The position numbers and the translations under genes were made by a program. Positions 1,256-24,791 of a stretch of 40,582 nt of DNA are shown here, one piece after another (positions within the stretch are counted from its first letter, which is position 1; each line of letters begins with the position of its first letter). This DNA is from Phycisphaerae bacterium (GTDB lineage Bacteria > Planctomycetota > Phycisphaerae > Sedimentisphaerales > Anaerobacaceae): assembly GCA_030619925.1 (NCBI GenBank), contig JAUXAL010000034.1:1-40582 (forward strand). Direction: 5' to 3'. The notes beneath the pieces were generated by a model. The model searched no databases and was not told the origin of the DNA. It saw only the letters and a list, made by a program, of their open reading frames with translations.

Positions 1256-1267
1256 GTAAAAATTAGG

Positions 1268-1441: not shown

Positions 1442-1697
1442 TCGCCGGCACGGCGACGCAATCCCTTATGCGTGCCCCGAGCAAAGCTTGTCCTCGATTC
1501 CGACCGGCAGCGGGGGCCTTAATATTGTCATCCCCGCATGCCATTAGCGGGGACACTAATTCACTAATTCACTTCTTCCATCGTCCGCCTTCTATTCTTT
1601 TACCTGATACCCTGCTGTCCTGATACCCTGCCACCTGATTTCCTGTTCACCCGATAACCTAATCTCTAATTCTCTAATCACTTCTTAAGCCTGCCAG
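1442..1697. repeat. Gene-free repeat stretch
   Basis: No coding sequence is supported. The stretch holds a GC-rich palindrome (1436-1456), a hairpin CCCCGC / GCGGGG around 1531-1553, and degenerate short repeats: ACTAATTCACTAATTCACTT, two copies of CCTGATACCCTGC near 1611-1632, and CTAATCTCTAATTCTCTAAT near 1659-1678. The hairpin could end transcription from the LamG gene, but no T-run is clear. Confidence 0.6.
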
Positions 1698-5039: not shown

Positions 5040-5051
5040 AATAGTCCTCTT

Positions 5052-5147
5052 TCAAACAAAACAACCGATGCCGAATAAAAAGATGGCAGGCAATACAAGT
5101 AACGGGATTGTTAATTTGCCACTGAAATGGTGAGGTAGATTACACAT
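5052..5147 (-). CDS. 31-residue hydrophobic leader peptide ORF upstream of the LamG/beta-helix gene
   Basis: ATG at 5145-5147 has an excellent ribosome binding site (AGGAGG, 7 nt upstream). The ORF encodes MCNLPHHFSGKL then TIPLLVLPAIFLFGIGCFV, a short polar head and a hydrophobic stretch like a signal peptide or single membrane segment. It ends TGA at 5052-5054, 12 nt before the ATG of the LamG gene. Promoter, leader and RBS match those of the RCC1-remnant gene, whose own signal peptide also contains IPLL at the same place. So this is probably the surviving 5' end of a lost secreted-protein gene. It may still be translated, since promoter and RBS are intact. Confidence 0.5.
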   Translation of the reverse strand: MCNLPHHFSGKLTIPLLVLPAIFLFGIGCFV

Positions 5148-5220
5148 TTTTTTATCCTCCTGCCTCTATTTGTTCCATAATAAGGGCAATCAACGGCTTT
5201 TCCCAATATCGCTGATATTC

Positions 5221-5250
5221 AGTATACCACACGCCCAGACTCGGCGTCAA
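5221..5250 (-). promoter_or_regulatory. Sigma70-type promoter for leader ORF and LamG/beta-helix gene
   Basis: Minus strand: TTGACG (5245-5250), 18-bp spacer, TATACT (5221-5226) preceded by TGG. The spacer contains the same AGTCTGGGCGTGTGG as the promoter at 1226-1255, and the two regions stay alike for about 130 bp including the GGAGGATAAAAA RBS. Confidence 0.75.
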
Positions 5251-5377
5251 GTAAAAAATTAGGTCGATTGCGAGCTCTCGGATGTCCGATGTCTGAAATC
5301 TGACGTTGGAAGTCGCAAGTCAGCTCGGTCGTTCATGAGTTTTTAGTATTTAAACTTGGAGTTTTTTGAAATGTCAC

Positions 5378-5407
5378 ATACGTAAAGCGCGTACGCGCTT
5401 TACGTAT
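5378..5407. repeat. Perfect 30-bp palindrome without a loop
   Basis: The half-site ATACGTAAAGCGCGT is followed directly by its exact reverse complement. It lies upstream of the LamG-gene promoter in gene-free DNA. It could be a binding site for a dimeric protein or a cruciform-forming element; there is no T-run right after it on either strand, so a terminator is less likely. Confidence 0.8.
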
Positions 5408-5706
5408 AAGCATTTTTCCCGCGATTGATTGTTATCGAACAATGAAAACAAAATATCGAAATCAATCATCGAGGATCCAGCATCCAGCATCGAGTATCCA
5501 GCATCAATCATCGAGTATCCAGCATCGAGTATCAAGAATCGAGCATCAAGCATCGCTTGTCCGCCGTAGCTTCAGCGAAGGCGGAAGCATCCAGAATCCA
5601 GCATCCAGCATCGAACTCCGTGAATATCCAATATCGAATAGCGAATGTCCAATTATGGAGCGAAAAGTGTGAGAATTTTGAATGGAATTGAGAATGCAGA
5701 TTTCAC

Positions 5707-5735
5707 TTGATGTTTAATAATACATGTGGTATAAT
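5707..5735 (+). promoter_or_regulatory. Promoter-like sequence with no recognisable gene behind it
   Basis: Plus strand: TTGATG (5707-5712), 17-bp spacer, TATAAT (5730-5735), preceded by CAC before the -35 and TGTGG before the -10, as at the secreted-protein promoters. What follows is low-complexity repeat DNA and then the convergent protease gene. It is either the relic of a lost gene's promoter or the start of a non-coding transcript. Confidence 0.45.
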
Positions 5736-6307
5736 GTGTTTAACTATGGATGGTTCATAGTTCGTTGTTCATAGAAAATAGCAAACCGCAAAGAGCAAAT
5801 CGTAAATGGTTCATAGTTCATGGTTCATAGATAACAGACAACAGAGAACAGACGACAGAAAACAGAAGACAGACGACAGAAAACAGACAATCGTCAATCC
5901 GGGGGTTCTCCTGATGGCTACCGAAGTTGATCTTTTTTCAGAGTCCCGTTTATGGGTGTCGAAACTCGTATCGAAGCTAGAAACTGGTAACTGGATACAC
6001 GAAAAAACAAGCTTCAAGCTTCTACAGCAAGTATCGTTACGAGCATCCACAACTTTAAACAAGAATCGCTATTCCGCATCAGAGCCTGCCCTGAGCTTGT
6101 CGAAGGGACAAGTTTCGCGGCAATGGCAGTATGGGCTAAAGCCCATCCTAACCATTTAACCAATTAACCATTTAACCAATTCGGTTTGCACTTTTACCAG
6201 AAATGGTGAGAAATTAAAAGAAGATTCTCGATTCTTGATTCTCGATTCTCGACGAGTATCCAGTATCCAGTATCCAGTATCGAGTTCGGGGTTGAATTAT
6301 TAAGGGC

Positions 6308-8283: not shown

Positions 8284-8755
8284 GCGGGTTTGCGAAAACT
8301 TATTAAGAAATTTTGGCTTTATCGGGCGTTGCCTGCACCCCCGTGCTTTTGGGCTTGGCCATCCTGCGGACTTGCGAAAGCAGGAACGGGGGTTACGCAG
8401 GCCCCGCGGCAGAGGCCGCTATCTTTCAATATTCGATAGGGGGTGGGAGGGAACCAGCCAATATTCTTGAAGCGGCGTGGAAGCGGAAAATTCGATATAA
8501 AGAACGGAACTACCGGTTTTTGTCATTTCCTGCGGGGCTTGGTCATCCTGTGGACAAGCAAGTTTAGCGAAAACTTATAGAAATCTTGCCTTGTCGGGCC
8601 CGAGTTGCTATACTTGTCTGACGACAGTCAAGATTCGAGCAAATACTTCCCCGCTGCCCCGTCTTGCGACGGGAGGCGCAGGGACATGGGCTTGCTTTAG
8701 CTAATTCATCCTTCGTAGTAGGACTACTACGGAGAACGGAAGGGTTGCCATAATT
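8284..8755. repeat. Gene-free repeat stretch before pyrR
   Basis: Two copies of the dispersed element GGGCTTGGCCATCCTG(C/T)GGA are at 8351-8370 and 8535-8554 (the latter with one change). Around them are purine-rich repeats, and a small hairpin CGTAGTAG / CTACTACG is near 8714-8731, just before pyrR. Short open frames here are repeat translations. No clear promoter for pyrR was found. Confidence 0.6.
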
Positions 8756-9338: not shown

Positions 9339-9376
9339 ACGAGTGCTTGAGATACGAGTGCCTGGGGTACGGGATT

Positions 9377-10336
9377 ATGGCGTTAAAAAGAAAAAGTAAA
9401 CAATTCAAGTGGCATCGCAAGCATTTGCTTGGGCTGCGGGAATTAAGCGCCGAAGAGATTACGTACATTCTTGACACTGCCAAAGGCTTCGAGCAGATAA
9501 GCACCCGGTCGGTTAAAAAAGCCCCGCCTTTGCGAGGCAAAGTTGTAGTGAATTTGTTTTTTGAAGACAGCACACGGACGCGAAACAGCTTTGCTCTGGC
9601 AGCAAGCCGGTTAAGCGCTGATGTCATAGAGTTCACCAAGAAGGCCAGCTCTGTTAGTAAAGGCGAGACCCTGCTGGATACGGCCAGGAATCTGGAAGCA
9701 ATGGGGATTGATATTATTGTAATTCGGCACAGTGCCGGCGGTGCGCCGAGATTATTGAGCAGGAATATCAATGCTTGCGTGGTCAATGCCGGTGACGGGT
9801 TCTGTGAGCATCCCACGCAGGGTCTTTTGGATGTCTATACTATTCGCAAAATCAAAGGCACTCTTGAGGGTTTGAAGATAGCAATTGTCGGCGATATAAC
9901 ACACTCACGCGTTGCACGCAGTGATATGTGGGCGATGACAAAACTCGGCGCCGAGGTCATATTCGTTGGTCCGCCGACACTTATACCGGCGCAGGTGAGT
10001 CGGCTGCCGGTTAAAGTAAGCTACTCGCTCGATGAAGTTATCGAAAAGGTTGATGTGATAAATATGCTGCGGATTCAGTTTGAACGGCTGGGAGGCAATC
10101 CTTTTCCTTCGATACGTGAGTATTCGCATTATTTCGGACTGACTGTCGAGCGGATGAAGAGAGCAAAGCCCGATATTCTGGTTATGCACCCGGGGCCGAT
10201 TAACAGGGGACTGGAGATGGAGAGCGAGGTGGCAGACGGTGACAATAGCGTTATCCTCCAGCAGGTAGCCAATGGCCTGGCTGTGAGAATGGCGGTGTTG
10301 TTTCTGGTTAACCAGGCAGCAGCCCAGAAGAGCTGA
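9377..10336 (+). CDS. pyrB: Aspartate carbamoyltransferase catalytic subunit
   Basis: Condenses carbamoyl phosphate with aspartate in de novo pyrimidine synthesis. 319 residues from the chosen ATG (MALKRKSKQ). An in-frame ATG at 9347 would start within low-complexity GATACGAGTGC repeats and is less likely. The carbamoyl-phosphate site FEDSTRTRNSFALAASRL, HPTQGLLDVYTI and MHPGPINRG are intact, and IVGDITHSRVARS marks the aspartate domain. No pyrI-like regulatory subunit is seen nearby. Just after the stop lies a 37-bp copy of the pyrC start, showing that pyrC once followed directly. Confidence 0.95.
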   Translation: MALKRKSKQFKWHRKHLLGLRELSAEEITYILDTAKGFEQISTRSVKKAPPLRGKVVVNLFFEDSTRTRNSFALAASRLSADVIEFTKKASSVSKGETLLDTARNLEAMGIDIIVIRHSAGGAPRLLSRNINACVVNAGDGFCEHPTQGLLDVYTIRKIKGTLEGLKIAIVGDITHSRVARSDMWAMTKLGAEVIFVGPPTLIPAQVSRLPVKVSYSLDEVIEKVDVINMLRIQFERLGGNPFPSIREYSHYFGLTVERMKRAKPDILVMHPGPINRGLEMESEVADGDNSVILQQVANGLAVRMAVLFLVNQAAAQKS

Positions 10337-10353
10337 CCGTTTTTACTGTGAAC

Positions 10354-10390
10354 TACGAACTATGAACTCTGAACTCTTGATAAAAAACGG
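10354..10390 (+). repeat. Left-behind copy of the pyrC 5' end
   Basis: 37 bp that match 11031-11067 with 4 differences. The copy contains an ATG (10362-10364) and reads MNSELLIKNG, the same first ten residues as PyrC, then runs into unrelated codons and a stop at 10419-10421. The similarity ends sharply on the right. Confidence 0.7.
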
Positions 10391-10401
10391 AGTTTGCTGG
10401 T

Positions 10402-10707
10402 ATGGACATAGTCAGGTCTAAAAACGGTGTGTCCATCAGATTACCAGAGGGCAGATGGTTTCACATCACAGAAGAGCACTCGGAAATGGCTGGTTATTAT
10501 TTCGAAGTTCTTGAGACAGTTCAGGAGCCCGCAGCGGTTTATGAAGGCAAGGCCGGTGAATGTCTGGCCGTGAGAGAAGTGGAAAGAGATAAATACATTG
10601 TGGTAGTATACAGAGAGGTAAGCAAAGAGGATGGATTTATCATCACCGCCTTTTTGACAAAGCGAAAAGGGCAACTCGAAAGGAGACAAAGGCTATGGCC
10701 GGAATAG
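10402..10707 (+). CDS. Putative toxin-like nuclease, PBECR/RelE-like small protein
   Basis: 101 residues. The order IRLPEGRWFHITEEHSEM, then FEVLETVQEPAAVYEGKAGE, then LAVREVERDKYIVVVYREV and GFIITAFLTKRKGQLERR matches small proteins I recall as phage-barnase/EndoU/ColicinE5-RelE (PBECR)-like, often found before a DUF2283 gene in cyanobacteria and planctomycetes. His22 and His26 with the C-terminal basic segment could form a nuclease site, but this is not proven. Its 3' end overlaps the DUF2283 gene by 13 nt, as in toxin-antitoxin pairs. The pair lies between pyrB and pyrC inside duplicated pyrC ends. Confidence 0.65.
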   Translation: MDIVRSKNGVSIRLPEGRWFHITEEHSEMAGYYFEVLETVQEPAAVYEGKAGECLAVREVERDKYIVVVYREVSKEDGFIITAFLTKRKGQLERRQRLWPE

Positions 10708-10931
10708 AGATAGAAAGAATGCTGACCCTTGTGCCCCAGTTATTACAGATTCCTCACAGCAGGATTTGGACGACATACGATGAGCAGGGGGATGTGCTAT
10801 ATATTAATTTCAAGAAACCGAGCCACGCTGATGATTCTGAACTCATGGATGATGACGTCATAGTCAGGTATGAAGAAGGAGAAATTGTAGGCATCACCAT
10901 ACTGAATGCAAGCAAGAGGGCGCCACAGTAG
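10695..10931 (+). CDS. DUF2283 family small protein (probable antitoxin partner)
   Basis: 78 residues. DEQGDVLYINFKKPSHADDS, then DDVIVRYEEGEIVGITILNA is the DUF2283 pattern. The family is often encoded next to small toxin-like genes. Here it overlaps the preceding nuclease-like gene by 13 nt, so the two are probably co-translated. The N-terminal ~25 residues are a helical extension (MAGIEIERMLTLVPQLLQIP). An antitoxin role is inferred from context only. Confidence 0.7.
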   Translation: MAGIEIERMLTLVPQLLQIPHSRIWTTYDEQGDVLYINFKKPSHADDSELMDDDVIVRYEEGEIVGITILNASKRAPQ

Positions 10932-11030
10932 CGAAAATAGTGTGTAACACAACTGGCAGGTGGAGCTGTGCCCAACGCTGTTTATTCCGCCATGGGCTAA
11001 AACCTCACTTTACAATTGCTAACAATTAAG

Positions 11031-11067
11031 TACGAGCTATGAACTCTGAGCTGTTGATAAAAAATGG
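11031..11067 (+). repeat. Functional copy of the duplicated pyrC 5' end
   Basis: Matches 10354-10390 at 33 of 37 positions and includes the ATG and first codons of the intact pyrC. Together the two copies bracket the nuclease-like/DUF2283 pair. Confidence 0.7.
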
Positions 11068-12346
11068 GCGGGTCATAGACCCTGCAAACGGCATCGATAA
11101 AAAATGCGATGTGCTTATCGTCGATGAAAAGATTGCAGCCGTCGGAGAAAAGACACAAGACCCAAGACTCAAGACCCAAGACAAAGGAACGGTTATCGAT
11201 GCGGCCGGCAAATTGGTAACGCCGGGTTTGATTGATATCCACGTTCACTTTCGTGAGCCGGGTGATGAAGAAGAAGAAACAATAGCAAGCGGCTCAACAG
11301 CAGCGGTGGCGGCAGGCTTTACTTCAGTTGTTTGTATGCCGAATACCAATCCTGTAATAGAAAATGAAACTGATGTCGAATACATCCATAGAAAGGGCAG
11401 ACAGACCAGGAAAACTCATGTTTACACGATGGGAGCTATTACGAAAGGACTTGCAGGTGTTGAGCTTGCTGAAATGGGACTGATGACTGAGGCCGGGGCC
11501 GTTGGTTTTACCGACGACGGCAGGGGGGTGCAGGACGCGGCGGTTATGCTGCGGGCACTGAAGTATGCTACCATGTTCGATGTGGTTGTAGCTCAGCATT
11601 GCCAGGATGATGGGTTTGCCGGCAATGGTGTGATGAACTCCGGTTACTATTCGACTATACTTGGGCTGCCGGGGATAGACCCGTTAGCGGAAGAGGCGAT
11701 GCTGTGGCGGGATATCCAGCTTGTTAAGAAATTTCCTCCTGAGCGGGTTCGCTACCACGCACAGCACATATCGACAGCAGGGTCGGTTGAGCTGATAAGG
11801 GCAGCTAAGAAAGATTCTCTGCCGATTACTTGCGAGGTAACGCCGCACCATTTGCTTTTGAATGAGGAATGTTGCGCCGAATACGACACGAACTACAAAG
11901 TAAATCCACCTTTACGAGGGGCCAAAGATGTTGAGGCCCTAAAGCAGGCGATCGCCGAAGGGCTGGTTGACGCTCTTGTTAGCGACCACGCCCCACATTT
12001 GCAAAGTGAAAAGGAGCTGGAGTTTTTGGCTGCTCCTTTCGGCATAGCGAGTTTGGAATGTGCTCTGGGTCTTTATGTCAAGGCTCTTATTGAGCCGCGT
12101 ATTTTGGATTGGCCCGGCTTAATTCGTTCAATGACGGAAAAACCAGCTAAGATAATCGGCGTTGACAAGGGTACACTCGGCATAGGCAAACAGGCCGACA
12201 TTACGATTATCGACCCCGATGCCGAGTATGAAATCGACGTGAACGAATTCCGCTCCAAGAGCAGAAACTGCCCCTATCACGGCTGGAAGGTCAAAGGCAA
12301 GGTCGAAAAAACAATCGTCGGCGGCGAGATAAGATTTGAAGCGTAA
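11039..12346 (+). CDS. pyrC: Dihydroorotase
   Basis: Interconverts N-carbamoyl-aspartate and dihydroorotate, the step after PyrB. 435 residues, the length of the multifunctional-type (class I) dihydroorotases. Metal-site motifs are present: DIHVHFREPGDEEEE, then MPNTNPVIEN, VAQHCQD, CEVTPHHLLL, and SDHAPH with its catalytic Asp. A short low-complexity insert (KTQDPRLKTQDKGT) lies in the N-terminal beta region, made of repeated CAAGACCCAAGACTCAAG-like DNA as in nearby intergenic regions. Both gene ends occur twice: the 5' end again at 10354-10390 and the 3' end again at 12639-12761. Confidence 0.95.
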   Translation: MNSELLIKNGRVIDPANGIDKKCDVLIVDEKIAAVGEKTQDPRLKTQDKGTVIDAAGKLVTPGLIDIHVHFREPGDEEEETIASGSTAAVAAGFTSVVCMPNTNPVIENETDVEYIHRKGRQTRKTHVYTMGAITKGLAGVELAEMGLMTEAGAVGFTDDGRGVQDAAVMLRALKYATMFDVVVAQHCQDDGFAGNGVMNSGYYSTILGLPGIDPLAEEAMLWRDIQLVKKFPPERVRYHAQHISTAGSVELIRAAKKDSLPITCEVTPHHLLLNEECCAEYDTNYKVNPPLRGAKDVEALKQAIAEGLVDALVSDHAPHLQSEKELEFLAAPFGIASLECALGLYVKALIEPRILDWPGLIRSMTEKPAKIIGVDKGTLGIGKQADITIIDPDAEYEIDVNEFRSKSRNCPYHGWKVKGKVEKTIVGGEIRFEA

Positions 12347-12363
12347 ATATAAAATTCGAAATC
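12241..12363 (+). repeat. Functional copy of the duplicated pyrC 3' end
   Basis: The last ~35 codons of pyrC plus 17 nt after the stop recur at 12639-12761 with about 10 differences in 123 bp. The DUF2442 gene lies between the copies. Confidence 0.9.
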
Positions 12364-12377
12364 CGAAGCACGAAACA

Positions 12378-12644
12378 ATGTCGAAATTTAAATGTCCAAA
12401 TGACCAAAACATTTCGGAAGTTGAAGTCTCCCATATCGACAGTCATGGTTTTTGGCTTTGCGTAGAAGATAAAGAATATTTTTTACCTTACGATGAGTAC
12501 CCGTGGTTCAAAGAGGCGAGAGTAAAAGAGATTCTGAATGTCAAATTGTTACATAGGCATCATCTAGATTGGCCGGCACTTGATGTCGATCTGGAAATTG
12601 ATTCCTTAGAGAATCCGCACAACTATCCGTTGAAATATGAATGA
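12378..12644 (+). CDS. DUF2442 family protein
   Basis: 88 residues from ATG 12378 (an ATG at 12336, inside pyrC, is less likely). VEVSHIDSHGFWLCVEDKEY, FLPYDEYPWFKEARVKEIL and the tail HHLDWPALDVDLEIDSL are typical of DUF2442, a small family frequently next to DUF4160 or toxin-antitoxin genes; no partner is present here. The gene lies between a complete pyrC and a leftover 3' end of pyrC. Its function is unknown; an antitoxin-like role is only a family association. Confidence 0.8.
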   Translation: MSKFKCPNDQNISEVEVSHIDSHGFWLCVEDKEYFLPYDEYPWFKEARVKEILNVKLLHRHHLDWPALDVDLEIDSLENPHNYPLKYE

Positions 12645-12761
12645 ATTCTGCTCCAAGAGCAGAAACTGTCCTTATCACGGCTGGAAGGTCAAAGGCAAGG
12701 TCGAAAAAACAATCGTCGGCGGCGAGATAAGGTTCGAAGCGTAAACGCAAATTTCGAAATC
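12639..12761 (+). repeat. Left-behind copy of the pyrC 3' end
   Basis: 92% identical to 12241-12363, covering the last ~35 codons of pyrC including its stop and 17 nt beyond. Most differences within the coding part are synonymous, one changes Arg to Cys. It has no start of its own and begins within the last codons of the DUF2442 gene. Confidence 0.9.
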
Positions 12762-12981
12762 TCCATCCTCCGAAGCAGAACTTCTACGGAGGACGGGTGA
12801 AACAAATGTAAATTACCAAAATACTGGATTCGAAGTGAGATTGCCGCCTGCTGCGCCAAGTGCACAGCTCGCTGTGACGCATCGCGGCGAGCACGGCGAC
12901 CGGCCTGCTTTCGCAATGACCTGCAGTGGGTTCCCGTGTGCGGGGCAGTGACAGGGGGGCAGACGGGATACGATATACGAG
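12762..12981. repeat. Gene-free repeat stretch
   Basis: Contains the dispersed pieces CCTCCGAAGCAGAACTTC / CTACGGAGGACGG (hairpin-like) and GC-rich stretches with TGCTTTCGCAATGACCTGC, then GATACGATATACGAG. No coding sequence or promoter is supported. Confidence 0.5.
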
Positions 12982-13081
12982 ATGTTTATTATCGATGGTC
13001 ATAATCTGTTGCACTCAATCCGTGAAGTGGACGAAGGCCCCGAGTCTATTAGCGATACTCAGTTGTGCCGAGTTGTAGGCA
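12982..13081 (+). pseudogene. Left-behind 5' end of the NYN-domain gene
   Basis: 100 bp starting with ATG that match the first 33 codons of the gene at 17045-17521 with about 11 differences. It reads MFIIDGHNLLHSIREVDEG, then PESISDTQLCRVVG, and then leaves the family sequence and stops after six more codons. It marks the left edge of the 4-kb accessory block. Confidence 0.9.
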
Positions 13082-13125
13082 CGAAATATTTTACTCTTTG
13101 ACAAAATGTGGGTTATAATAATTAT

Positions 13126-13440
13126 ATGAATCGTGAAGCATTATTAGAACGCGTGAAACAGACTATCCAGGAAATGGAGCCTGATGCTGAAATCATCCTT
13201 TATGGGTTCCGTGCCCGTAAGGATTCAAATGCACAGTCAGATTGGGATTTTCTGATTTTACTTGACGGCCCTGTTAATGATGAACGTGTAGATAAAATTC
13301 GACATCGCCTTTACGAAATTGAATGGGAGAGCGATGAAGTTCTCTGCTGCATTGTACGCAACCGGGAAGAATGGAATAGCCCTCTCTGGAAGAGTATGCC
13401 GTTTTATCAAAATGTCGAGCTTGAGGGGGTAGTATTATGA
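13126..13440 (+). CDS. MNT-type minimal nucleotidyltransferase (antitoxin-like) with altered active-site Ser
   Basis: 104 residues from ATG 13126, chosen over the upstream in-frame codon because it starts right where family homology starts (MNREALLERVKQTIQEM). The nucleotidyltransferase core reads ILYGFRARKDSNAQSDWDFL; the usual GSRARGD..SDWD has Phe28 in place of Ser, while both acidic residues (Asp39, Asp41) remain. In MNT/HEPN pairs the MNT protein AMPylates and neutralises the HEPN RNase. Its stop overlaps the start of the HEPN gene (ATGA). Little Shine-Dalgarno is seen; TTGACA and TATAAT are both just upstream but only 10 bp apart. Confidence 0.85.
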   Translation: MNREALLERVKQTIQEMEPDAEIILYGFRARKDSNAQSDWDFLILLDGPVNDERVDKIRHRLYEIEWESDEVLCCIVRNREEWNSPLWKSMPFYQNVELEGVVL

Positions 13441-13862
13441 CTAAATCAAACGACGAGCTGGTCTCATATCGTCTCCAGAGGGCACGCGAAACACTCGCAG
13501 ATGCGCGTATTCTGGCCGATGCCAGCCGTTGGAATCCGTGTGTGAATCGACTTTATTATGCCTGCTTTTATGCCGTCTCAGCTCTTCTGGTCCAAGAGGG
13601 TTTATCTTCCTCTAAACATACAGGGCTACGAAGTCTCTTTAATCGGCATTTTGTCAAAACAAACAAGGTCCCTAAAGAAAAGGCTCGGATTTTCAACGAC
13701 CTCTTTGAGCGGCGTCAGGAGGGTGACTACATGGATTTTGTGAGCTTGTATTGTCTCCTGTGGCACCTGCACTGGGAGACCAGGAGTTTTTCTATGACCC
13801 TCTCGTCATGGAGTGGATCGATTTTCGATGCCAAATGCTGGGTGACTATATCAAAGAGATGA
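13437..13862 (+). CDS. HEPN-domain protein, C-terminus truncated and read through into foreign sequence
   Basis: The first ~100 residues are a HEPN domain (YRLQRARETLADARILAD, NRLYYACFYAVSALLVQEG, RSLFNRHF, FERRQEGDYMDFV), the partner of MNT nucleotidyltransferases. RSLFNRH fits the R-X(4-6)-H RNase motif. After MDFV at about 13741 the normal last helix is missing. The frame runs on through 38 codons (LYCLLWHLHWETR...) that are an out-of-frame reading of a glycosidase fragment. So the 3' end was lost at a junction and the protein has a random tail. Whether it still acts as a toxin is open. Confidence 0.75.
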   Translation: MTKSNDELVSYRLQRARETLADARILADASRWNPCVNRLYYACFYAVSALLVQEGLSSSKHTGLRSLFNRHFVKTNKVPKEKARIFNDLFERRQEGDYMDFVSLYCLLWHLHWETRSFSMTLSSWSGSIFDAKCWVTISKR

Positions 13863-14065
13863 CTGCCTACGTCCGTTTATTGAATAAGGAAGTGGCTACC
13901 GACATCAACATTGGAACTCTGTCGGGCGGCAACAAGGCATGGCAGAAGAGTCAAAGGTTGTCCCTACTACTCCCACACACGGACGTTTATATCGTTGAGG
14001 GAAACAACGGTGGCCGATATACGGAAGACGGCAGGGTGATTTTTGTCAGGCTTTTATGCCGATAA
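13751..14065 (+). pseudogene. Internal fragment of a glycosidase-like gene
   Basis: A frame without a proper start reads PALGDQEFFYDPLVMEWIDF, RCQMLGDYIKEMTAYVRLLN, then LLPHTDVYIVEGNNGGRYTE and DGRVIFVRLLCR, then a stop. It resembles the middle of large planctomycete/Lentisphaerae glycosidase-like proteins in which a similar RFR.(L)..DY...M..Y...LNPEVA...LLPH.D..W.E segment occurs. Nothing of the rest of that protein is present. It joins the truncated HEPN gene near 13740. Confidence 0.5.
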
Positions 14066-14082
14066 TTTGAGATTTCAAAAGA

Positions 14083-15900
14083 ATGTGTGGTATCGCGGGA
14101 TATATTGGCCGAGCTGCTGTTTCTTACGATCGGATTGGGTCGGCTTTGTCACTGATGAGCAATCGAGGTCCTGATCATAAAGATTATAAGGTTTATGAGC
14201 AGGGGGGGATGAATGTTGTGCTACTACACTCTCGTTTAAGCATTCTTGACCTTGACCCTCGGTCGCACCAGCCATTTTCTATTGGTAACAGCACATTGAT
14301 TTTTAATGGTGAGATATACAATTATCTGGAGCTTCGTGAGGAACTCAAGGCTAAGGGGATTCCTTTACGCACAACCTCTGATACCGAAGTTTTGTTGCAC
14401 TATTATTTACTTTATGGGCAGCGATGCATCGAATATTTTGAAGGGATGTGGAGTTTCGCGATATTTGATGAATCTAAAGGTTTGTTATTTCTCTCTAGGG
14501 ATCGTTTTGCCGAAAAGCCGTTGTACTGCTATCGATCAAAAGAAGGGTTTTATTTTGGTTCAGAAGTAAAGTTCATCAAGGCTTTATCCGGTGAGGTGCT
14601 TTCTGTGAATCAGCGACAGTTATTGCGTTATATGGTAAACGGGTACAAATCTCTTTACAAGACAGAAGACACTTTTTTTGAGGGCATAAAGGAAGTTCCG
14701 TTCGCCACGAATTTAACGATAGATAGCAATTTTAATGAAAGAAGCAGTCGTTACTGGGTACCACAACATAAGCAGCAGTCGATGACGCTGGAGGAGTCGG
14801 TTGAGGCTTTCCGTGAGCGTTTGCTGGAGAGTGTGCGCATTCGTCTTCGTGCGGACGTGCCATTGGCATTTTGTCTAAGTGGAGGTATTGATTCTGCATC
14901 TATTGTTTCTATCGCGGCTAAGTGTTTCGACTATGACGTGGCGACCTTTTCAATTGTGGATTCTGATGAACGCTATGATGAAAGAGATAACATTCAAGCA
15001 ACGTTAGATGATTTGAAATGTAAGCACACAATTATTGAGACCTCGCATGATGGTTTTTTTGAGCGGTTAAGCGGGCTTGTTGATTATCATGATGCGCCTT
15101 TGTATACGATCTCTTACTATATTCATTCGTTTCTTTCTGAATCCATTGCCAAGCATGGCTACCGAGTGGTTTGCTCTGGTACAGGTGCGGATGAAATGGT
15201 GACTGGGTACTATGACCATTTTAACTTGTATCTTTACGAAATGCGCAATTCTCAGAACTACCTCCAATATCTTGAAGACTGGAAGCAACATGTTGGGTGT
15301 TTTGTGAGAAATCCATACTTGAAACAGCCGGAGTTGTACTTCAACAATCCCAGATTCAGGAATCATATTTATTTGAATAATGATGTTTTTTCAGGATATA
15401 TGAATGAAAGTTTTACAGAGGCATTTGTCGAAGAAGTGTATTGCAACAGTCTTTTACATAATCGGATGATGAATGAAATGTTTCATGAGGGAACGCGTGT
15501 GATTTTACACGAAGATGATTTGAATTCTATGCGTTACTCCATTGAGAATCGCAGCCCTTATCTTGACTCGAAATTGTTTGAAGTATCATATTCGATACCA
15601 ACTGAATATCTTATCCAGGACGGATACGGAAAGTATATTCTGCGTGAGGCGGTGAAGGGCATTTTAAATAATCAGGTAAGATTAGACAGGCAGAAGAAGG
15701 GATTCAATGCAGCAATTACATCTCTGGTGAATTTCAAGGATCCTTCCATCAGGGATTATATATTAAGCGATAGTCCAGTGTATAACCTTGTTGATAGGAA
15801 AAAAATAGAAGCTATTATCCCTACCCAGGCTCTGCCTAATAGTATGAGTAAATTCTGGTTCTATTTTCTTAATGCCAAGGTCTTTCTGGAGCAGAATTGA
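14083..15900 (+). CDS. asnB: Asparagine synthetase (glutamine-hydrolysing)
   Basis: 605 residues. Makes asparagine or an amide on a related substrate from glutamine and ATP. The N-terminal class II amidotransferase domain has the catalytic Cys2 (MCGIAGYIG), RGPDHKDY, and FNGEIYNYLELREEL. The C-terminal ATP pyrophosphatase domain has the P-loop LAFCLSGGIDSASIVSIAAK, and CSGTGADEMVTGYYDH later. Such genes within accessory islands often serve surface-polysaccharide or peptide modification rather than amino-acid supply. The DNA is clearly AT-richer than the pyr genes or nifJ. It is followed closely by a methyltransferase gene. Confidence 0.9.
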   Translation: MCGIAGYIGRAAVSYDRIGSALSLMSNRGPDHKDYKVYEQGGMNVVLLHSRLSILDLDPRSHQPFSIGNSTLIFNGEIYNYLELREELKAKGIPLRTTSDTEVLLHYYLLYGQRCIEYFEGMWSFAIFDESKGLLFLSRDRFAEKPLYCYRSKEGFYFGSEVKFIKALSGEVLSVNQRQLLRYMVNGYKSLYKTEDTFFEGIKEVPFATNLTIDSNFNERSSRYWVPQHKQQSMTLEESVEAFRERLLESVRIRLRADVPLAFCLSGGIDSASIVSIAAKCFDYDVATFSIVDSDERYDERDNIQATLDDLKCKHTIIETSHDGFFERLSGLVDYHDAPLYTISYYIHSFLSESIAKHGYRVVCSGTGADEMVTGYYDHFNLYLYEMRNSQNYLQYLEDWKQHVGCFVRNPYLKQPELYFNNPRFRNHIYLNNDVFSGYMNESFTEAFVEEVYCNSLLHNRMMNEMFHEGTRVILHEDDLNSMRYSIENRSPYLDSKLFEVSYSIPTEYLIQDGYGKYILREAVKGILNNQVRLDRQKKGFNAAITSLVNFKDPSIRDYILSDSPVYNLVDRKKIEAIIPTQALPNSMSKFWFYFLNAKVFLEQN

Positions 15901-15928
15901 CAAAGATGATTGTGATAAGGGGAATACG

Positions 15929-16990
15929 GTGAATAGCGATGATATTGAATGCCGTCGTTATGAGGAGCTATTGGAAGAGTTTGTCGAGTTATGTGAAGGG
16001 TTGGTAGAGAGGGGGTTACCATATCTGGCTGTTATACTTTGCCACGAGCTTTATCGTTTTTTGTACCCCGTGGAACCGTATGCGAATTTTACAAATACTG
16101 AACCAGTAGGATTTGTCATTGGTCATATAAAAAGATTAATTAAATCAGGGCAAAGTTTTTCTAAAAGTGTCGTTCCCTATGATGTGAATTTGAGTTTATT
16201 CAGTTGTTGTAAGGAGGAGCAAACACTGGAGAAATCTACCTCGGCTTTGTATTCGGAGTTGTGGGGGGGATTTGATACAGATGACTTGACCAACGAAAGT
16301 TTTCGCCTATTAACGAGTCGATTACCTAAGCATATTATTGAGGAGAACATTGTAGGTAAGAAAGTGTTGGATATGGGGTGTGGTTCCGGGCGCTACTCGA
16401 TTGCTCTTGCAAGGGTTGGTGCTGGACAGGTAATCGGCGTTGATCTACAAAGTAAATCTTTCGCCGTCGCAAAACAATGGTGCGAAGATAATAATCTTTC
16501 AGTACAGTTTGAAGAAGGTAACGTTCATCAATTACCGTTTAATGATAATGTTTTTGATTTTGTTTTTTGTAATGGTGTGCTTCATCATACCGATTCTATT
16601 GAGAAAGGTTTGCAAGAATTATCCCGGGTGTTAAAAAGGTCGGGCAAAGCATTTTTATATCTATATGCTTCGGGAGGGGTGTTTTGGACAACACGGCGAG
16701 CACTGAGGCGGATTTTCAAAAGGATACCGATAGCTTATACAAAGTCTGTTCTTCAGATGATAGGGATGCCGTCCAAACGTTTTGTATTCTGCGATACATG
16801 GTATGTTCCCCAGGAAACGCATACGACGAGAAAACAGCTTACTGAGATGCTGGAAAGAACGGGATTTTCATGTGATAAAATCATAGGAAATAATATGTTT
16901 GATTTGGATGCAGCCATTGAAAGGGACGTTACAGATGCGAAAAAGATGTGGGGGGACGGCGAGCATCGCTATATTCTTGAATTGCAGTAG
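15929..16990 (+). CDS. Class I SAM-dependent methyltransferase with N-terminal extension
   Basis: 353 residues from GTG 15929, preceded by AAGGGG; an ATG at 15872 inside asnB gives a 372-residue alternative. Residues ~1-125 are an uncharacterised, mostly helical region. Then comes the methyltransferase fold: motif I VLDMGCGSGRYSIALARVGA, acidic VIGVDLQS, EEGNVHQLPFNDNVFDFVFC (motifs II/III), and LHHTDSIEKGLQELSRVLK. AT-rich like asnB, and probably co-transcribed with it. The substrate is unknown; a sugar, lipid or peptide made with the asnB product is a fair guess. Confidence 0.8.
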   Translation: MNSDDIECRRYEELLEEFVELCEGLVERGLPYLAVILCHELYRFLYPVEPYANFTNTEPVGFVIGHIKRLIKSGQSFSKSVVPYDVNLSLFSCCKEEQTLEKSTSALYSELWGGFDTDDLTNESFRLLTSRLPKHIIEENIVGKKVLDMGCGSGRYSIALARVGAGQVIGVDLQSKSFAVAKQWCEDNNLSVQFEEGNVHQLPFNDNVFDFVFCNGVLHHTDSIEKGLQELSRVLKRSGKAFLYLYASGGVFWTTRRALRRIFKRIPIAYTKSVLQMIGMPSKRFVFCDTWYVPQETHTTRKQLTEMLERTGFSCDKIIGNNMFDLDAAIERDVTDAKKMWGDGEHRYILELQ

Positions 16991-17044
16991 TTCAACGTTT
17001 TTGTTATAGACTTGGGGTTTGGGTTGCTTAAAAGCATTGCTTGC

Positions 17045-17521
17045 ATGTTTATTATTGACGGTCATAATCTGTTGCACTCAATCCGTGAAGTGGACGAAGG
17101 CTCAGAGTCCATTAGCGATGTTCAATTGTGCCGGATTGTGGGCAGGTATCTAAAGCTGATCGGCGAAAAGGGTGAGATTGTTTTTGACGGTACTGGGCCG
17201 CGAGACAAGAGCGAATTCGATAATATAAGCAATTTGGAGGTCCTCTTTGCCGGCCTGGGGACCGATGCCGACACGATAATCGAGGACAAGATAAGAGCAA
17301 ACACAGCACCGAAGAGATTAACCATTGTCAGCAGCGACCGAAGATTACGAAAGGCAGCACAGATGAGAAAAGCAATGGCGGTGAAGTCACAGGTTTTCTG
17401 GAATAATCTCCAGAGGCAGTTGAGCCGGAAAAAACGTATCAGAGAACCAGCAGCGAAACGGCAAGGACTAAGCGAGAGCGAAACCAAACAATGGCTTGAG
17501 TTCTTCGGCCTTGAGCAATAA
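17045..17521 (+). CDS. NYN-domain (YacP/Rae1-like) putative RNase
   Basis: 158 residues from ATG 17045, where the conserved start MFIIDGHNLLHSIREVDEG begins; an upstream ATG at 17012 adds eleven non-conserved residues. NYN acidic positions are visible: FIIDGHN, EIVFDGTGPRD, GTDADTIIEDKI and IVSSDRRLRKAA. Bacillus Rae1/YacP cleaves mRNA at the ribosome, so an RNase role is plausible. The first 33 codons are duplicated at 12982-13081, on the far side of the accessory block, so this gene once followed pyrC. Confidence 0.85.
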   Translation: MFIIDGHNLLHSIREVDEGSESISDVQLCRIVGRYLKLIGEKGEIVFDGTGPRDKSEFDNISNLEVLFAGLGTDADTIIEDKIRANTAPKRLTIVSSDRRLRKAAQMRKAMAVKSQVFWNNLQRQLSRKKRIREPAAKRQGLSESETKQWLEFFGLEQ

Positions 17522-20600: not shown

Positions 20601-21356
20601 GCTGATTACCTTGTGCGCAAATCCGTTTGGGGTCTTGGCGGTGATGGATGGGCTTACGACATTGGATATGGAGGACTGGACCACGTGCTGGCAAGTGGGG
20701 CCGATATTAATCTGCTTGTCTTGGATACAGAAGTATATTCCAATACCGGCGGGCAGATGTCGAAGTCTACACCGAGGGCGGCGGTCGCCAAATTTGCCGC
20801 CGCGGGAAAGCCAACGCCCAAGAAAGACCTCGGACTTCTGGCTATGACCTACGGAAACATTTATGTAGCCAACGTGGCAATGGGTGCAAATACGAATCAG
20901 ACGGTAAAGGCCTTTGTCGAGGCTGAAGGCTACGCCGGGCCTTCGCTTATAATTGCCTATTCGCACTGTATCGCCCACGGTATCAATATGACGGCGGGCT
21001 ATCAGGAACAGAAAAAGGCCGTTGCCTGTGGTCACTGGCCGTTGTATAGATTTGACCCGCGACTTAAGGAGCAGGGCAAAAATCCGCTGCAGCTTGACTC
21101 GAAAGCTCCAACGGTTGATTTCGAGGAATATGCTTACGGCGAGAATCGTTATCGAACGCTGAAGCAATCGAAGCCGGAAGTGGCAGCGGAGTTGATTAAG
21201 CTTGCCAGCAGTGACGCCGTCGAAAGGTATGCTTTGATGGAGCAACTTGCGAAATTGACGTGCGCCCAAAAGCGCGAAGGAAGTGTAGAGCCAAGTGCCC
21301 CCTTGCTTTCTTGCGAAAGCAAGAAGGGGGGCGAAAAACAAACTGTAGGGAGGTGA
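17688..21356 (+). CDS. nifJ: Pyruvate:ferredoxin (flavodoxin) oxidoreductase
   Basis: 1222 residues from ATG 17688 (GGTGGAG upstream); the single-chain form of PFOR. Oxidises pyruvate with CoA to acetyl-CoA and CO2, reducing ferredoxin, in anaerobic metabolism. Domain order is normal: domain I (IDGNTAVAYVAHATNEVIAI, YPITPSSSMGE), domain II/III (FGLGADGTVGANKNSIKIIG), the 2x[4Fe-4S] ferredoxin domain (CIQCGTCSLLCPHAAIR, CTGCGACVLNCPAQ), then the TPP domain with the proximal cluster (CAGCGETAYVKLL, IGNATGCSSIYGG, LDTEVYSNTGGQMSKSTPR) and IAYSHCIAHGIN. The last ~25 residues (SVEPSAPLLSCESKKGG...) are an extension encoded by a palindromic dispersed repeat at 21298-21334. The RBS of the next gene lies in its last codons. 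Confidence 0.96.
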   Translation: MKRKMVTIDGNTAVAYVAHATNEVIAIYPITPSSSMGEMADAKTAKGQPNIWGTVPSVTEMQSEAGAAGAVHGALATGALTTTFTASQGLLLMIPNMYKIAGELLPTVFHISARSLACQALSIFGDHSDVMTCRETGFAMLCSSSIQEIMDFALIAQQSTLASQVPFLHFFDGFRNSHEIQKVEELTHDDMRAMIDDEFVARHKARALSPDRPMISGTAQNPDVYFQGRETVNKYYLAAPKIVQDTMDKFAKLVGRQYHLFDYVGPADAEKIIIIMGSGAETAHETAEYLASKGQKVGVVKVRLYRPFSIKHFIAALPKTVKKIAVLDRTKEPGSIGEPLYMDVRTAIGEAMDAGQTHFKKYPLIVGGRYGLGSKEFTPAMVKAVFDNLDAAKPKKGFTVGIIDDVTNTSLEVDESFEVAGKRLLSGMFFGLGADGTVGANKNSIKIIGELTDNYAQAYFVYDSRKAGTMTTSHLRFGEQLIRRPYLVGKADFIACHNPSFLEKYDMLSTARDGATFLLTSSHGKDEVWDTLPQEVQKQIIEKKLKFYVIDAIGLGSELGLGARINVIMQTAFFKISNIIPLDTAVKAIKDAVQKTYGKKGQKVVEMNYAAIDGALDKIYEVAVPDKVTSKIKMRPPVPEDAPDFVREVTAELIALRGDKLPVSKMPADGKFPTGTTKYEKRNIAVNIPEWEPDICIQCGTCSLLCPHAAIRIKAYDDKCLKDAPAGFKSAGAKGKDFAGLKFTVQVAPEDCTGCGACVLNCPAQEKDENKQPTGRKAINMVPQEPIREQERENYSYFLSIPNTDPELFKAGTVKGSQLIEPLFEYSGACAGCGETAYVKLLTQLFGDRAFIGNATGCSSIYGGNLPTTPYAKRADGRGPTWSNSLFEDTAEFAMGMRLTVDKFKERALAILDKVVDEGCFDAKLAEEIRTVTLADDPAQSAIEEQRARVDKLKEQCRKSGCPDCEQLLSIADYLVRKSVWGLGGDGWAYDIGYGGLDHVLASGADINLLVLDTEVYSNTGGQMSKSTPRAAVAKFAAAGKPTPKKDLGLLAMTYGNIYVANVAMGANTNQTVKAFVEAEGYAGPSLIIAYSHCIAHGINMTAGYQEQKKAVACGHWPLYRFDPRLKEQGKNPLQLDSKAPTVDFEEYAYGENRYRTLKQSKPEVAAELIKLASSDAVERYALMEQLAKLTCAQKREGSVEPSAPLLSCESKKGGEKQTVGR
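21298..21334. repeat. Palindromic dispersed element inside the 3' end of nifJ
   Basis: GCCCCCTTGCTTTC, loop TTGC, then GAAAGCAAGAAGGGGGGC. Essentially the same palindrome occurs in non-coding DNA near 22615-22650. Here it is read as codons for the nifJ C-terminus. Confidence 0.75.
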
Positions 21357-22209: not shown

Positions 22210-22742
22210 GAGCATAAGTCCACAGGATGGCCAAGCCTATTGTGTCTCGCATCAGGCTTCTGGATTCACAATTCACGAATTCCATCGATGTTTATAAAAT
22301 TTTTCTCCACAGGATGGCCACTCGTCGGGGCGGAGCCCGCCGCAGCCCGCAGCCCGCTCCCAAAATAGTCTTCCGCAGGATGGCCAAGCCCATTTTGTCT
22401 GTATTGGTATGGTAGTGATTATCGGCCTAAGTGGATGGCGGGCCTTATATGGCCGTCTAATGAGGGCAATCACATAGGATTGTCCTTACTTCTGCCTTTG
22501 GGCTTGGCCATCCTGTGGATAGCGGATTGCCTTTATGGCCGTTGGGCTTGGCCATCCTGCGGTCAAAAAAAGTTAAGCGAACAAGTCATTAAACCGATAA
22601 ATTTCATCGAGTGGGCCCCCCTTCTTGCTTTCGCAAGAAAGCAGGGGGGGAAAGGTTCGGGATATAGGGGCGGCCTTATATGGCCGCCTACGAGGGCAAT
22701 CACATAGGATTGCCCCTACGTGTTTTTTGGAAGTTTATTGCT
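22210..22742. repeat. Cluster of dispersed repeats upstream of the Wza-like gene
   Basis: No gene is supported. Six copies of GGCTTGGCCATCCTG(T/C)GG lie here or just after: three inverted (22221-22238, 22307-22320, 22373-22392) and three direct (22500-22518, 22544-22562, 22752-22770, the last within the next gene). A ~50-bp direct repeat (GGCCTTATATGGCCG...GAGGGCAATCACATAGGATTG) is at 22439-22487 and 22671-22719. The palindrome seen at the nifJ end recurs near 22615-22650. Frames through this region encode only repeat peptides. Confidence 0.8.
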
Positions 22743-24791
22743 ATGAGAAGTGGGCTTAGCCATCCTGGGGAGCTACGAGCTGAAAGTGAAGGCAAAATTG
22801 GTCTTGGCGGAGCAAGCCGTAGCCAGATTGGTTACTTTTCATTCGCTATTTCCTTTTTGCTTTTCTTGATTCTTTCATCTGGCTGCGGTAATAAGTTTTT
22901 TGACCCGACACAGGTGGGCAGGTTCCGTCCTGTTCCTGCAGTCAATGTGATATTGGATACGTTGGGCGTGGCGGAAGAGACGCCGGTGGCGTGGGAAGAA
23001 GCCCAAGAGCCGCGGCAAAGTGATATTGTAGCAGTTGAATCTGATTATGTGTTTAGGTCCGGTGACATTATCAGGGTAGCTATCTTCGAGTTGCTTCAAG
23101 AGGAAGCGTACTTTGTAAACGATTATGTTGTTACCGAAACCGGAAAGATATCCATGCCGGAGGTTGGGGTAGTTGAGGCGGCGGGCTTGACTGAAACACA
23201 ACTTGAGGAAGAGATAAGGCAAATCCTTTCTCCGAGCATATTAAGAGAGCCATTGGTTACCGTAACTTTAGTCAGGTCCCAGCAGTATACGTTTTCAATA
23301 TTAGGGGATGGTGTGTCGGCTCCGAGCAGGTACGTTATTCCACGATATGATTTCAGGTTGACCGAGGCGCTTGCAATGGCAGGTGGGCCAAGGCAATTCA
23401 ACGTAAGCTACATTTATGTTTCACGTTTTACCAGGGACAAAGAGAAAAGATATAAGCGTTTTGGGCCGGAGGCCGGTGAACTTGAGCTGATTGAACCTGG
23501 GATAACCAGGCCGAAGCGACGGATTCTGGGGATGACCGCGCCTCGACGGAGCTCGCCGAAGTCGCCTCGGGCGCAGCATCGCTGGCCTGAAAGTAGAGTG
23601 GTTATAACTTTGTCTGAAATGATAACGGATAGGGAATTTGCTCAATTGCCGGAAGGTTATGAGCGGTTTAGCAGTGGCACACGGAGTCGGATGGATGCCA
23701 GAGATGTACGGGGGTCATCTGCCGCACCGGTTGATTCAAGAAAGACGATGGATGGGCCGGTAGGTGTCGAGGACATACTGAAAACATTGTCCGAGCGGTC
23801 TCGTCGAGGAAGGAGAACAGATGGGCGAGCAGATGCCGAAGAGGTGCTCAGACCGTTCTGGGGGCCGTCTCGTCGCGAAAGGAGGATAGATGAGCAAGCA
23901 GATGCCGAAGAGGTGCTCAAACCGTTCTGGGGGCCGTCTCGTCGCCGAAGGAGGATAGATGAGCGAATAGATCCCCAAGACACATTGAGGACATCGGTCT
24001 CGCCCGTTGCTCCAAGGGCGATGGGTAAGCCATTGGGTGAGGCCGAAGCTGGGCGTATTGAGTGGATTTTCCAGGATGGCAAATGGGTCCCGGTTCAAAT
24101 CACTCCGCCGAAGCCGATGGAAGATGAGCCCGAAACCGGGCATGTTGAGTGGATTTTCCAGAATGGCAAATGGATTCCTGTTCAAGTTGCTCCACCAGAG
24201 CGGAGAGAGCCGGTTATTAGAGTCGAACCTGGAGAACAATTAGTTGGTCCGTTCAGGGAGCGGGCGGTGCCGGATTTGAGACGGGCCGAGGCGGCCGAGA
24301 CGCGGCTCATAAAGATTCCGGTTGATAGGTTGCTTGCCGGCGACCCACGGTATAATATCGTGATAAAGCCTGGCGATACTATCTATGTACCTGTTGATAT
24401 TGTTGGTGAATTCTGTATTATGGGTAATGTCAACCGTACGGGATTCATTCCTATTACGGGCCGACCGATGACTTTGAAGATGGCTATAGCTGCTGCGGGA
24501 GGGTTGGGACCTTTGGCATGGCCGAGGCGTTGCGAGGTGGTAAGAAGGATAGGCAGGAAGAGAGAAGAAATAGTGATGGTGGATTTGGATAAGATAGCCA
24601 GCGGTGAGCAGCCGGACTTCTTTATTAAGCCGAATGATCTGATCAATGTCGGCACACAAGCTACCGCCAGATGGCGTGCAATTCTGCGAAATGCGTTCAG
24701 GGCAACTTACGGGTATGGCTTTGTTTATGACCGTAATTTTGCAGACAGAGATTTCGGTACTCGAAGACTTATACCGAGCTTGTTGTTCTGA
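22743..24791 (+). CDS. Polysaccharide export lipoprotein, Wza/SLBB family, with internal tandem repeats
   Basis: 682 residues from ATG 22743; an ATG at 22680 lies in repeat DNA. A long N-region made from dispersed repeats precedes the lipobox signal (FAISFLLFLILSSGCG). Poly_export domain: VFRSGDIIRVAIFELLQEEA, TETGKISMPEVGVVEAAGLT, EEIRQILSP. First SLBB: FSILGDGVSAPSRYVIPR, LTEALAMAGGPRQF. Then an unusual ~290-residue linker with three 23-residue repeats (ADAEEVLKPFWGPSRR) encoded at 23768-23974 and two EWIFQ(D/N)GKW(V/I)PVQ repeats. The final SLBB is VPVDIVGEFCIMGNVNRTGF, followed by DLINV. Wza proteins form the outer-membrane pore for exopolysaccharide. It starts the exosortase/polysaccharide locus. 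Confidence 0.85.
   Translation: MRSGLSHPGELRAESEGKIGLGGASRSQIGYFSFAISFLLFLILSSGCGNKFFDPTQVGRFRPVPAVNVILDTLGVAEETPVAWEEAQEPRQSDIVAVESDYVFRSGDIIRVAIFELLQEEAYFVNDYVVTETGKISMPEVGVVEAAGLTETQLEEEIRQILSPSILREPLVTVTLVRSQQYTFSILGDGVSAPSRYVIPRYDFRLTEALAMAGGPRQFNVSYIYVSRFTRDKEKRYKRFGPEAGELELIEPGITRPKRRILGMTAPRRSSPKSPRAQHRWPESRVVITLSEMITDREFAQLPEGYERFSSGTRSRMDARDVRGSSAAPVDSRKTMDGPVGVEDILKTLSERSRRGRRTDGRADAEEVLRPFWGPSRRERRIDEQADAEEVLKPFWGPSRRRRRIDERIDPQDTLRTSVSPVAPRAMGKPLGEAEAGRIEWIFQDGKWVPVQITPPKPMEDEPETGHVEWIFQNGKWIPVQVAPPERREPVIRVEPGEQLVGPFRERAVPDLRRAEAAETRLIKIPVDRLLAGDPRYNIVIKPGDTIYVPVDIVGEFCIMGNVNRTGFIPITGRPMTLKMAIAAAGGLGPLAWPRRCEVVRRIGRKREEIVMVDLDKIASGEQPDFFIKPNDLINVGTQATARWRAILRNAFRATYGYGFVYDRNFADRDFGTRRLIPSLLF
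23768..23974 (+). repeat. Three tandem 69-bp coding repeats in the Wza-like gene
   Basis: Units at 23768-23836, 23837-23905 and 23906-23974. Units two and three are nearly identical in DNA, unit one more diverged. Each encodes 23 residues around EEVL(R/K)PFWGPSRR(E/R)RRIDE. Confidence 0.85.

Follow-up and report, generated by a model that had tools for sequence, protein, structure and literature searches.

Copies of housekeeping-gene ends bracket small toxin-antitoxin-like cassettes in Phycisphaerae

The stretch of DNA analysed here, called the window, is the complete contig C103 (40,582 bp) of a Phycisphaerae bacterium whose genome amounts to 4.02 Mb in 141 contigs; this genome is designated G000, other G codes stand for the genomes of relatives and L codes for individual loci. 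The named matches closest to the pyrC gene of the window belong to metagenome-assembled Phycisphaerae and Sedimentisphaerales (Planctomycetota). Around pyrC, between pyrB and an NYN gene, lie three small groups of genes, the payloads, each placed between an intact gene end and a second, diverged copy of the same end, the leftover. Most payload genes are predicted to be toxin-antitoxin (TA)-like, a term that refers here to family membership. The gene-end pairs were found by self-comparison of the window sequence and payload families were assigned by Pfam at E<=0.001, as follows.

9347..10336, + strand: pyrB (aspartate carbamoyltransferase), intact core gene; NCBIfam NF002032/TIGR00670 above cut-off
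10351..10390, + strand: leftover pyrC 5' end, lying before the payload; 40 bp, 87.5% identical to 11028-11067, E 1.5e-6
10402..10707, + strand: PBECR2-like toxin-type gene; Pfam PF18810, E 8e-5, under the curated cut-off of Pfam
10695..10931, + strand: DUF2283 antitoxin-type gene; Pfam PF10049, E 7e-17
11039..12346, + strand: pyrC (dihydroorotase), intact; NCBIfam TIGR00857 above cut-off
12240..12363, + strand: pyrC 3' end, functional copy; 124 bp, 91.9% identical to 12638-12761, E 1e-45
12336..12644, + strand: DUF2442 payload gene; Pfam PF10387, E 7e-14
12638..12761, + strand: leftover pyrC 3' end; from self-comparison and alignment
12982..13081, + strand: leftover 5' end of the NYN gene; 100 bp, 89% identical to 17045-17144, E 6e-31
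13108..13440, + strand: MNT-type nucleotidyltransferase gene; Pfam PF01909
13437..13862, + strand: HEPN gene, partner of MNT; Pfam PF05168
14083..15900, + strand: asparagine synthase-like cargo gene; Pfam PF00733 and PF13537
15872..16990, + strand: S-adenosylmethionine-dependent methyltransferase cargo gene; Pfam PF08241
17045..17144, + strand: NYN-gene 5' end, functional copy; from self-comparison
17048..17521, + strand: intact NYN (YacP-like) gene; Pfam PF05991

A first-pass annotation of this DNA had reported four such pairs. The three located in 10351-17144 are real, with E values from 1.5e-6 to 1e-45, and Pfam agrees with the payload families that it had named (PBECR-like plus DUF2283, DUF2442, MNT plus HEPN, asparagine synthase and methyltransferase), the PBECR2 match being weak. 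The fourth pair (35143-35178 / 35640-35674, 36 bp, 83%) is not counted, because its E value of 0.033, no better than that of many listed pairs and not above chance, lies within the noise of the list, and because the small open reading frame (ORF) adjoining it, searched as a hand-translated protein, gave no Pfam match. The annotation had also seen no integrase or transposase, and indeed none was matched by Pfam at E<=0.001 in any payload gene of the window. The window repeats of 40, 124 and 100 bp and the payloads devoid of a transposase match do not resemble insertion sequences or transposons, with their transposase and short target duplication. Likewise, no integrase gene, as borne by integrase-carried islands, was found by Pfam among the window payload genes, which belong to families other than those of restriction-modification (R-M) systems. 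The final codons and the stop codon of the DUF2442 gene fall inside the leftover pyrC end. In 13437-14065, the homology of the HEPN protein to its counterpart of L396 extends no further than residue 103, and a second frame begins at 13751, a possible frameshift.

The first-pass annotation had proposed to look for empty sites in relatives, and these are common. Across 40 pyr-region stretches from 38 relatives, with a gap below 150 bp taken as empty, an empty pyrB-pyrC gap was seen in 21 of the 32 relatives in which this gap was measurable and an empty pyrC-NYN gap in 28 of 37; pyrB, pyrC and NYN are contiguous in 17 of the 30 relatives with both gaps measured. The filled gaps hold varied genes. 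Three of them carry a duplicated gene end: the pyrB 3' end around a DUF2283 gene in G004 (86 bp, 89.5%), the pyrC 3' end around a retropepsin-like gene in G027 (94 bp, 80%) and the NYN 5' end around a HicB-HicA pair in G023 (76 bp, 76%); the remaining filled gaps gave no gene-end copy at the thresholds used. A wider scan of GTDB genomes, restricted to the best 80 of 175 pyrC loci, with 57 and 76 gaps measurable, found copies of gene ends, 30 bp or longer, in the two pyr gaps at 6 of these 80 loci, three of which are again G004, G023 and G027 (identical pyrC bodies). The further cases are L395, with an 89-bp pyrC 5' leftover at the position equivalent to that of the window and the same payload (PBECR-DUF2283), and L398 and L403, where a DUF2442 gene is followed by a pyrC 3' leftover (98 bp and 104 bp, respectively); this payload and its leftover are present there as in the window. 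Homologues of the window DUF2283 gene occupy the equivalent pyrB-pyrC site in G004, G023 and L395, and those of its MNT gene lie immediately downstream of pyrC in G009, G016, G002, L396, L421, L436 and L440. By eye, positions 2425-3645 of L395 are nested, with the pyrC 5' leftover, PBECR, DUF2283, a copy of the pyrB end, HicB with a partial HicA, a DUF2283-like fragment and pyrC in succession.

The arrangement recurs elsewhere with similar small genes, as a repeated process and not a local oddity. The search for DUF2283, DUF2442, HicA and HEPN loci covered 41 genomes of the family (Sedimentisphaerales/Phycisphaerae); 120 loci were fetched as a first set, 115 of them testable, and 60 more from the remaining listed matches formed a second set. 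A locus was considered bracketed when a direct repeat had one copy on each side within 1.5-kb flanks (blastn E<=1e-4), and strongly so when the repeat measured at least 45 bp with E<1e-8. Bracketing was found at 37/115 loci of the first set (strong at 23/115) and at 15/60 of the second (strong at 9/60; p 8e-4 against random windows), which makes 32 strongly bracketed loci out of 175. For the random control, twenty 20-kb stretches of 19 genomes, at least two of them containing TA-like inserts of the test set, were divided into 420 overlapping windows; 29 windows were bracketed and 14 strongly so (Fisher p 5e-9 for strong bracketing). As the payload families had been picked from the pyr locus of the window or of its relatives, the fair tests are the second set and the figure that leaves the pyr locus out (29/170 strong, p 5e-8). 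Genes of the NUDIX family were never bracketed (0/27 by either definition). Those of the S23 family (23S rRNA intervening protein), which occur in 36 of the 41 genomes, nine of them in G000, were bracketed in 1/29 cases tested and strongly in 0/29. Strong bracketing of TA-like loci exceeds that of both families pooled (Fisher p 6e-5). On the strength of these two families, the view that any small accessory gene would do was rejected, though Y1_Tnp transposases reached 4/29 for strong and 9/29 for looser bracketing. The enrichment of TA-like genes between gene-end copies that the annotation had wished to see examined therefore stands against random windows, S23 and NUDIX, and does not stand against Y1_Tnp. 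For G000 itself, the two sets include eight TA-like loci, and four of these pass the E<=1e-4 threshold for bracketing, namely those at the pyrC 5' end, the pyrC 3' end, purH (C82) and trkA (C13).

TA-like genes are enriched, not exclusive, within gene-end duplications. An unbiased scan, run over 943,572 bases (the window, the 20 background stretches and the 40 pyr-region stretches), returned 27 two-copy pairs, eight of which lie in the window or are the known pairs of G004, G023 and G027; several of the others enclose genes that, by eye, are not TA-like in appearance, and TA exclusivity was rejected on this ground. Since some payloads are other than TA-like, as in these pairs and in the retropepsin-like case of G027, gene-end duplication as such does not depend on TA genes. 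Two pairs concern other gene types, as judged by eye: a 152-bp, 78% pair around a gene resembling a DNA methyltransferase (L198, 8256-10098) and a 44-bp, 98% pair around a gene resembling rmuC (L202, 1837-3046), a young non-TA case.

The anatomy of the repeats was examined on 43 bracketing pairs retained at E<1e-6 (30 from the first set and 13 from the second), a search that shorter or very old repeats escape. The medians are 72 bp for length (range 30-378 bp), 87.7% for identity and 637 bp for spacing. Eighteen of the 43 lie at the 3' end of an ORF and six at a 5' end, the ORF reaching at least 400 nt past the repeat. In the 17 inspected of the 18 3' cases, the repeat ends no further than 25 bp before or 26 bp after the stop codon (median +1; within 8 bp in 9/17), and its boundary is abrupt even in pairs of 94-100% identity (L333, L342, L174, L159, L084). 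The genes whose ends are duplicated score above the NCBIfam cut-offs for uvrC, guaA, folP, tyrS, pheS, fumarate hydratase, aroE (with an aroD-like part just under its cut-off), mutS, purH, pyrB and pyrC, and under them for trkA-like, mnmE-like, gloB-like and mpaA-like genes. No core sequence common to the aligned gene ends was seen by eye, no motif search having been made.

Cassettes recur at one gene end across different genera. The purH gene is present in 37 of the 41 genomes and a leftover purH end is found only in G000 and G009, where the payload is identical in kind and the payload-leftover junction is, by eye, also shared. At fourfold sites these two genomes agree in 19/21 positions of the DUF2283 payload gene and in 110/213 of purH (p 4e-4); therefore, the payload moved after the two hosts had diverged. 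This is horizontal movement between genera, and to this extent at least the cassette spreading suspected by the first-pass annotation is borne out.

The trkA gene provides a second such site. The survey covered 22 of the 35 trkA-bearing genomes over 380 to 6,164 downstream bases, five of them having been chosen for a HEPN match on the contig. In eight of the 22 (G019, G023, G012, G007, G063, G030, G000 and G035), a nucleotidyltransferase gene starts at most 77 bp after the trkA stop codon, and leftover trkA ends were found in G000 (39 bp, 97%), G035 (45 bp, 87%) and G030 (29 bp, 97%). The HEPN protein encoded downstream ends in a TrkA-like tail, LEKLPQE*, in G023, G000 and G035, with variants in G063 and G012, and a truncated HEPN of G030 reads into DLAKLPQE*; no such tail was evident at the trkA loci of G019 and G007. 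Among the 29 HEPN loci of the series L161-L190 whose C-termini were examined, the four with such a tail (L172, L174, L179 and L185) all lie at trkA. Judged from these protein ends, the tail probably represents an earlier leftover end absorbed into the payload gene. In the array of G000 (C13, L174), trkA is followed by MNT, HEPN with the tail, HigB-HigA and the trkA leftover. Between G000 and G035 fourfold identity is 12/34 for MNT and 73/89 for trkA; as MNT is by far the more diverged, the trkA islands do not look like the product of a single vertical insertion, unless MNT simply evolves at a much higher rate.

The reading that we favour, tentatively and with a probability of about 0.48, is that selfish TA-like cassettes insert with long target duplication, as is known for R-M genes, and are later reshuffled by recombination. 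Small, mostly TA-like cassettes would enter at housekeeping-gene ends or close to them and duplicate about 30-170 bp of the target end; the target gene would retain one complete end and the second copy would be stranded past the payload, where it may decay or serve as the C-terminus and stop codon of the payload gene. Later arrivals at one end would build small arrays, and cassettes may then be swapped between lineages at matching gene ends via recombination, which could also exchange or homogenise the two end copies. The over-representation of TA-like genes would probably arise because direct repeats permit clean deletion of an insert, a loss that an addictive payload would resist by selecting against the cells that undergo it.

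The precedent comes from passages of a report on R-M genes (PMC3874152, citing Nobusato 2000 and Furuta 2010), which describe insertion with long target duplication and no transposase. The resemblance, as far as those passages go, lies in selfish addictive gene pairs, a target duplication of about 100 bp and movement unlinked to a known mobile element (PMC3874152); a direct duplication of this order flanking the insert is what the 43 pairs display. The present cases differ in that payloads are mostly TA-like, many repeats lie at the ends of housekeeping genes, the same site is used across genera, the leftover end is apparently reused as a payload C-terminus and the pattern is tested with controls.

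Which of the two copies is native was approached by four tests, in which statements on a single locus rest on 30-106 sites of short repeats and each species is represented by one genome in the collections. In the 12 pairs pooled besides L398, the host relative (the first listed) is matched by the intact copy at 74 sites and by the leftover at 37 (p 6e-4, the sites not being independent); in this pooled set the derived copy is mostly the leftover, which is what a decaying duplicated target would give. Changes polarised in six pairs were 34 in the leftover (codon positions 13:5:16) and 24 in the intact copy (4:4:16), positions 1 and 2 together accounting for 18/34 and 8/24. With third positions balanced and the leftover ahead at the first and second, the pattern suggests that the copies diverged after the duplication under relaxed constraint, short of neutral. 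In six of 12 pairs (G000 pyrC 3', NYN, purH and trkA; G004 pyrB; G035 trkA) the leftover is nearest its own intact copy. Discordance between gene end and gene body also occurs in genome pairs without inserts, and discordance of the intact end alone was for this reason dropped as evidence of a donor.

Several observations weigh against target duplication as the general account. Nineteen of the 43 pairs have no ORF of at least 400 nt outside the repeat and some are perhaps members of repeat families. The repeat edges hug stop codons more closely than random target duplication requires. Y1_Tnp transposases do not differ from TA-like loci in strong bracketing (p 0.39). The totals of 34 and 24 polarised changes are not significantly different (p 0.24), and the pooled codon positions lie midway between decay and constrained divergence. 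In the other six of the 12 pairs (G000 pyrC 5', G027, G023, G009 purH, L398 and L403) the leftover is not nearest its own intact copy, and at L398 it is the leftover, not the intact end, that is host-like. Finally, among the genomes compared, no insertion was caught in the act.

It is at L398 that the first-pass annotation fares best in its view that the incoming DNA brought its own gene end, the functional copy grouping with a donor and the leftover with the host. Such an outcome is expected of homology-facilitated illegitimate recombination, in which linear DNA from a relative, bearing the payload together with the donor's form of the gene end, would recombine homologously inside the core gene and illegitimately on the other side. 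The L398 gene body and leftover group with the sister genome G023 (90% and 95% identity), unlike the intact end (82.5%), which has a different C-terminus; the C-terminus of G023, RFSAGD, is found only in the leftover. From the conserved core to the end, G023 is matched at differing sites by the leftover 11 times and by the intact end once (p 0.006), in a region picked after the alignment had been viewed; over the whole repeat the matches are 12 and 7. At L403, perhaps a second case, the leftover is nearest to relatives of its gene body and the intact end is nearest G000, and the intact NYN start of G023 is not nearest that of its sister L398. In the leftovers of L398 and L403 the payload-proximal bases are common to both genomes and the remainder differs, as expected if they were chimaeras formed by recombination inside the repeat. 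The annotation had raised this route itself, and a 7-bp microhomology, GTAGGCA, seen by eye against G009 at the junction of NYN leftover and payload in the window, would fit it at that one junction; a competence-type ComEC-domain protein is encoded in 35 of the 41 genomes, G000 included. The 74-to-37 count, in which the intact copy is host-like, and the discordant ends of insert-free genome pairs speak against it, and a donor-brought functional end was dropped as a general rule and kept for L398. As the leftover is nearest its own intact copy in only half of the 12 pairs, this route keeps some weight beyond L398, and we regard it as somewhat unlikely. Both long target duplication and this route yield the observed outcome. 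Ku-dependent end joining with filled-in ends was rejected, Ku occurring in only 3 of the 41 genomes; in G000 the sole trace found is a mere fragment of the Ku domain (G000:C127:15207-15347, L272).

The same recombination has been proposed for the effector-immunity arrays of type VI secretion systems, in the sections of PMC5361080 that treat them. These arrays, as presented there, resemble ours in one anchor gene with earlier 3' regions displaced downstream and accumulating; they differ in that the end of the effector gene itself is replaced, whereas here an unrelated housekeeping gene stays whole (PMC5361080). The Rhs and contact-dependent inhibition (CDI) toxin genes, named in the same sections of that paper, likewise leave orphaned gene ends past a new toxin module; the stranded ends described here differ in that they come from metabolic genes and themselves have no known toxin role. 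Among the papers searched, none was found that joins toxin-antitoxin systems with homology-facilitated illegitimate recombination.

A bolder proposal would make the host gene-end copy the vehicle, or homology arm, of integrase-free cassettes that integrate and excise by recombination, rebuild the gene each time and build arrays of gene-end copies able to become a payload C-terminus; we consider it unlikely.

Old insertions passed on vertically, in which gene conversion held the two end copies similar and allelic exchange in the flanking core genes later substituted the payload, would account for the identical middle and diverged edges of some pairs (L159, L127), for one payload type at one gene end in several genera, for the pyrC 5' leftover apparently shared by the window and its close relative L395, and for the G000/G035 payload being more diverged than trkA. 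The explanation is nonetheless improbable, given a purH payload far more alike than purH itself between G000 and G009, a purH leftover in just 2 of the 37 purH-bearing genomes and the 17 of 30 relatives with both pyr gaps empty.

Integrative elements that enter the 3' ends of genes restore the gene and leave the former end on the far side, as e14 does in icd, and guaA and other gene 3' ends serve as targets of islands. An integrase or comparable enzyme that works in trans and site-specifically on gene 3' ends, with the repeats as attachment sites, would also explain one payload at one gene end in different genera. Such an enzyme is very improbable here, since the target ends belong to unrelated genes of many kinds and the search by eye mentioned above revealed no common core; moreover, unlike those elements, the window payload genes have no integrase match, payloads often span a few hundred bases and targets are many.

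Chance, repeat families or assembly error, to which the weak or low-complexity fourth pair and some intergenic pairs, and the metagenomic origin of the nearest named relatives, might lend colour, can hardly explain controls that differ several-fold from TA-like loci, or diverged copies with related structures on contigs from assemblies that bear different names (L395, L398, L403 and L397, L443).

Other repeats of the window stand apart from the gene-end pairs. A 125-bp, 84% direct pair (1156-1275 / 5149-5271), its copies 3.9 kb apart and upstream of two minus-strand genes (RCC1-like; LamG/beta-helix), resembles a duplicated upstream region more than a gene end. A short-repeat family in both orientations (8344-8571, 21298-21332 and 22216-22719) is of a type able to mimic gene-end pairs, and tandem internal repeats with 69- and 87-bp steps occupy 23741-24204 within the ORF 22680-24791.

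These observations bear on the question of how chromosomal TA modules reach regular positions without a carrier element. In this family of Phycisphaerae, numerous cases can be compared side by side, sites without the insert are available and the scar can be measured; the family also provides a searchable signature, a gene-end copy beyond the far side of a TA module. The arrangement suggests how housekeeping operons tolerate insertion, and it offers a test of whether addiction shields an insert from deletion between direct repeats.

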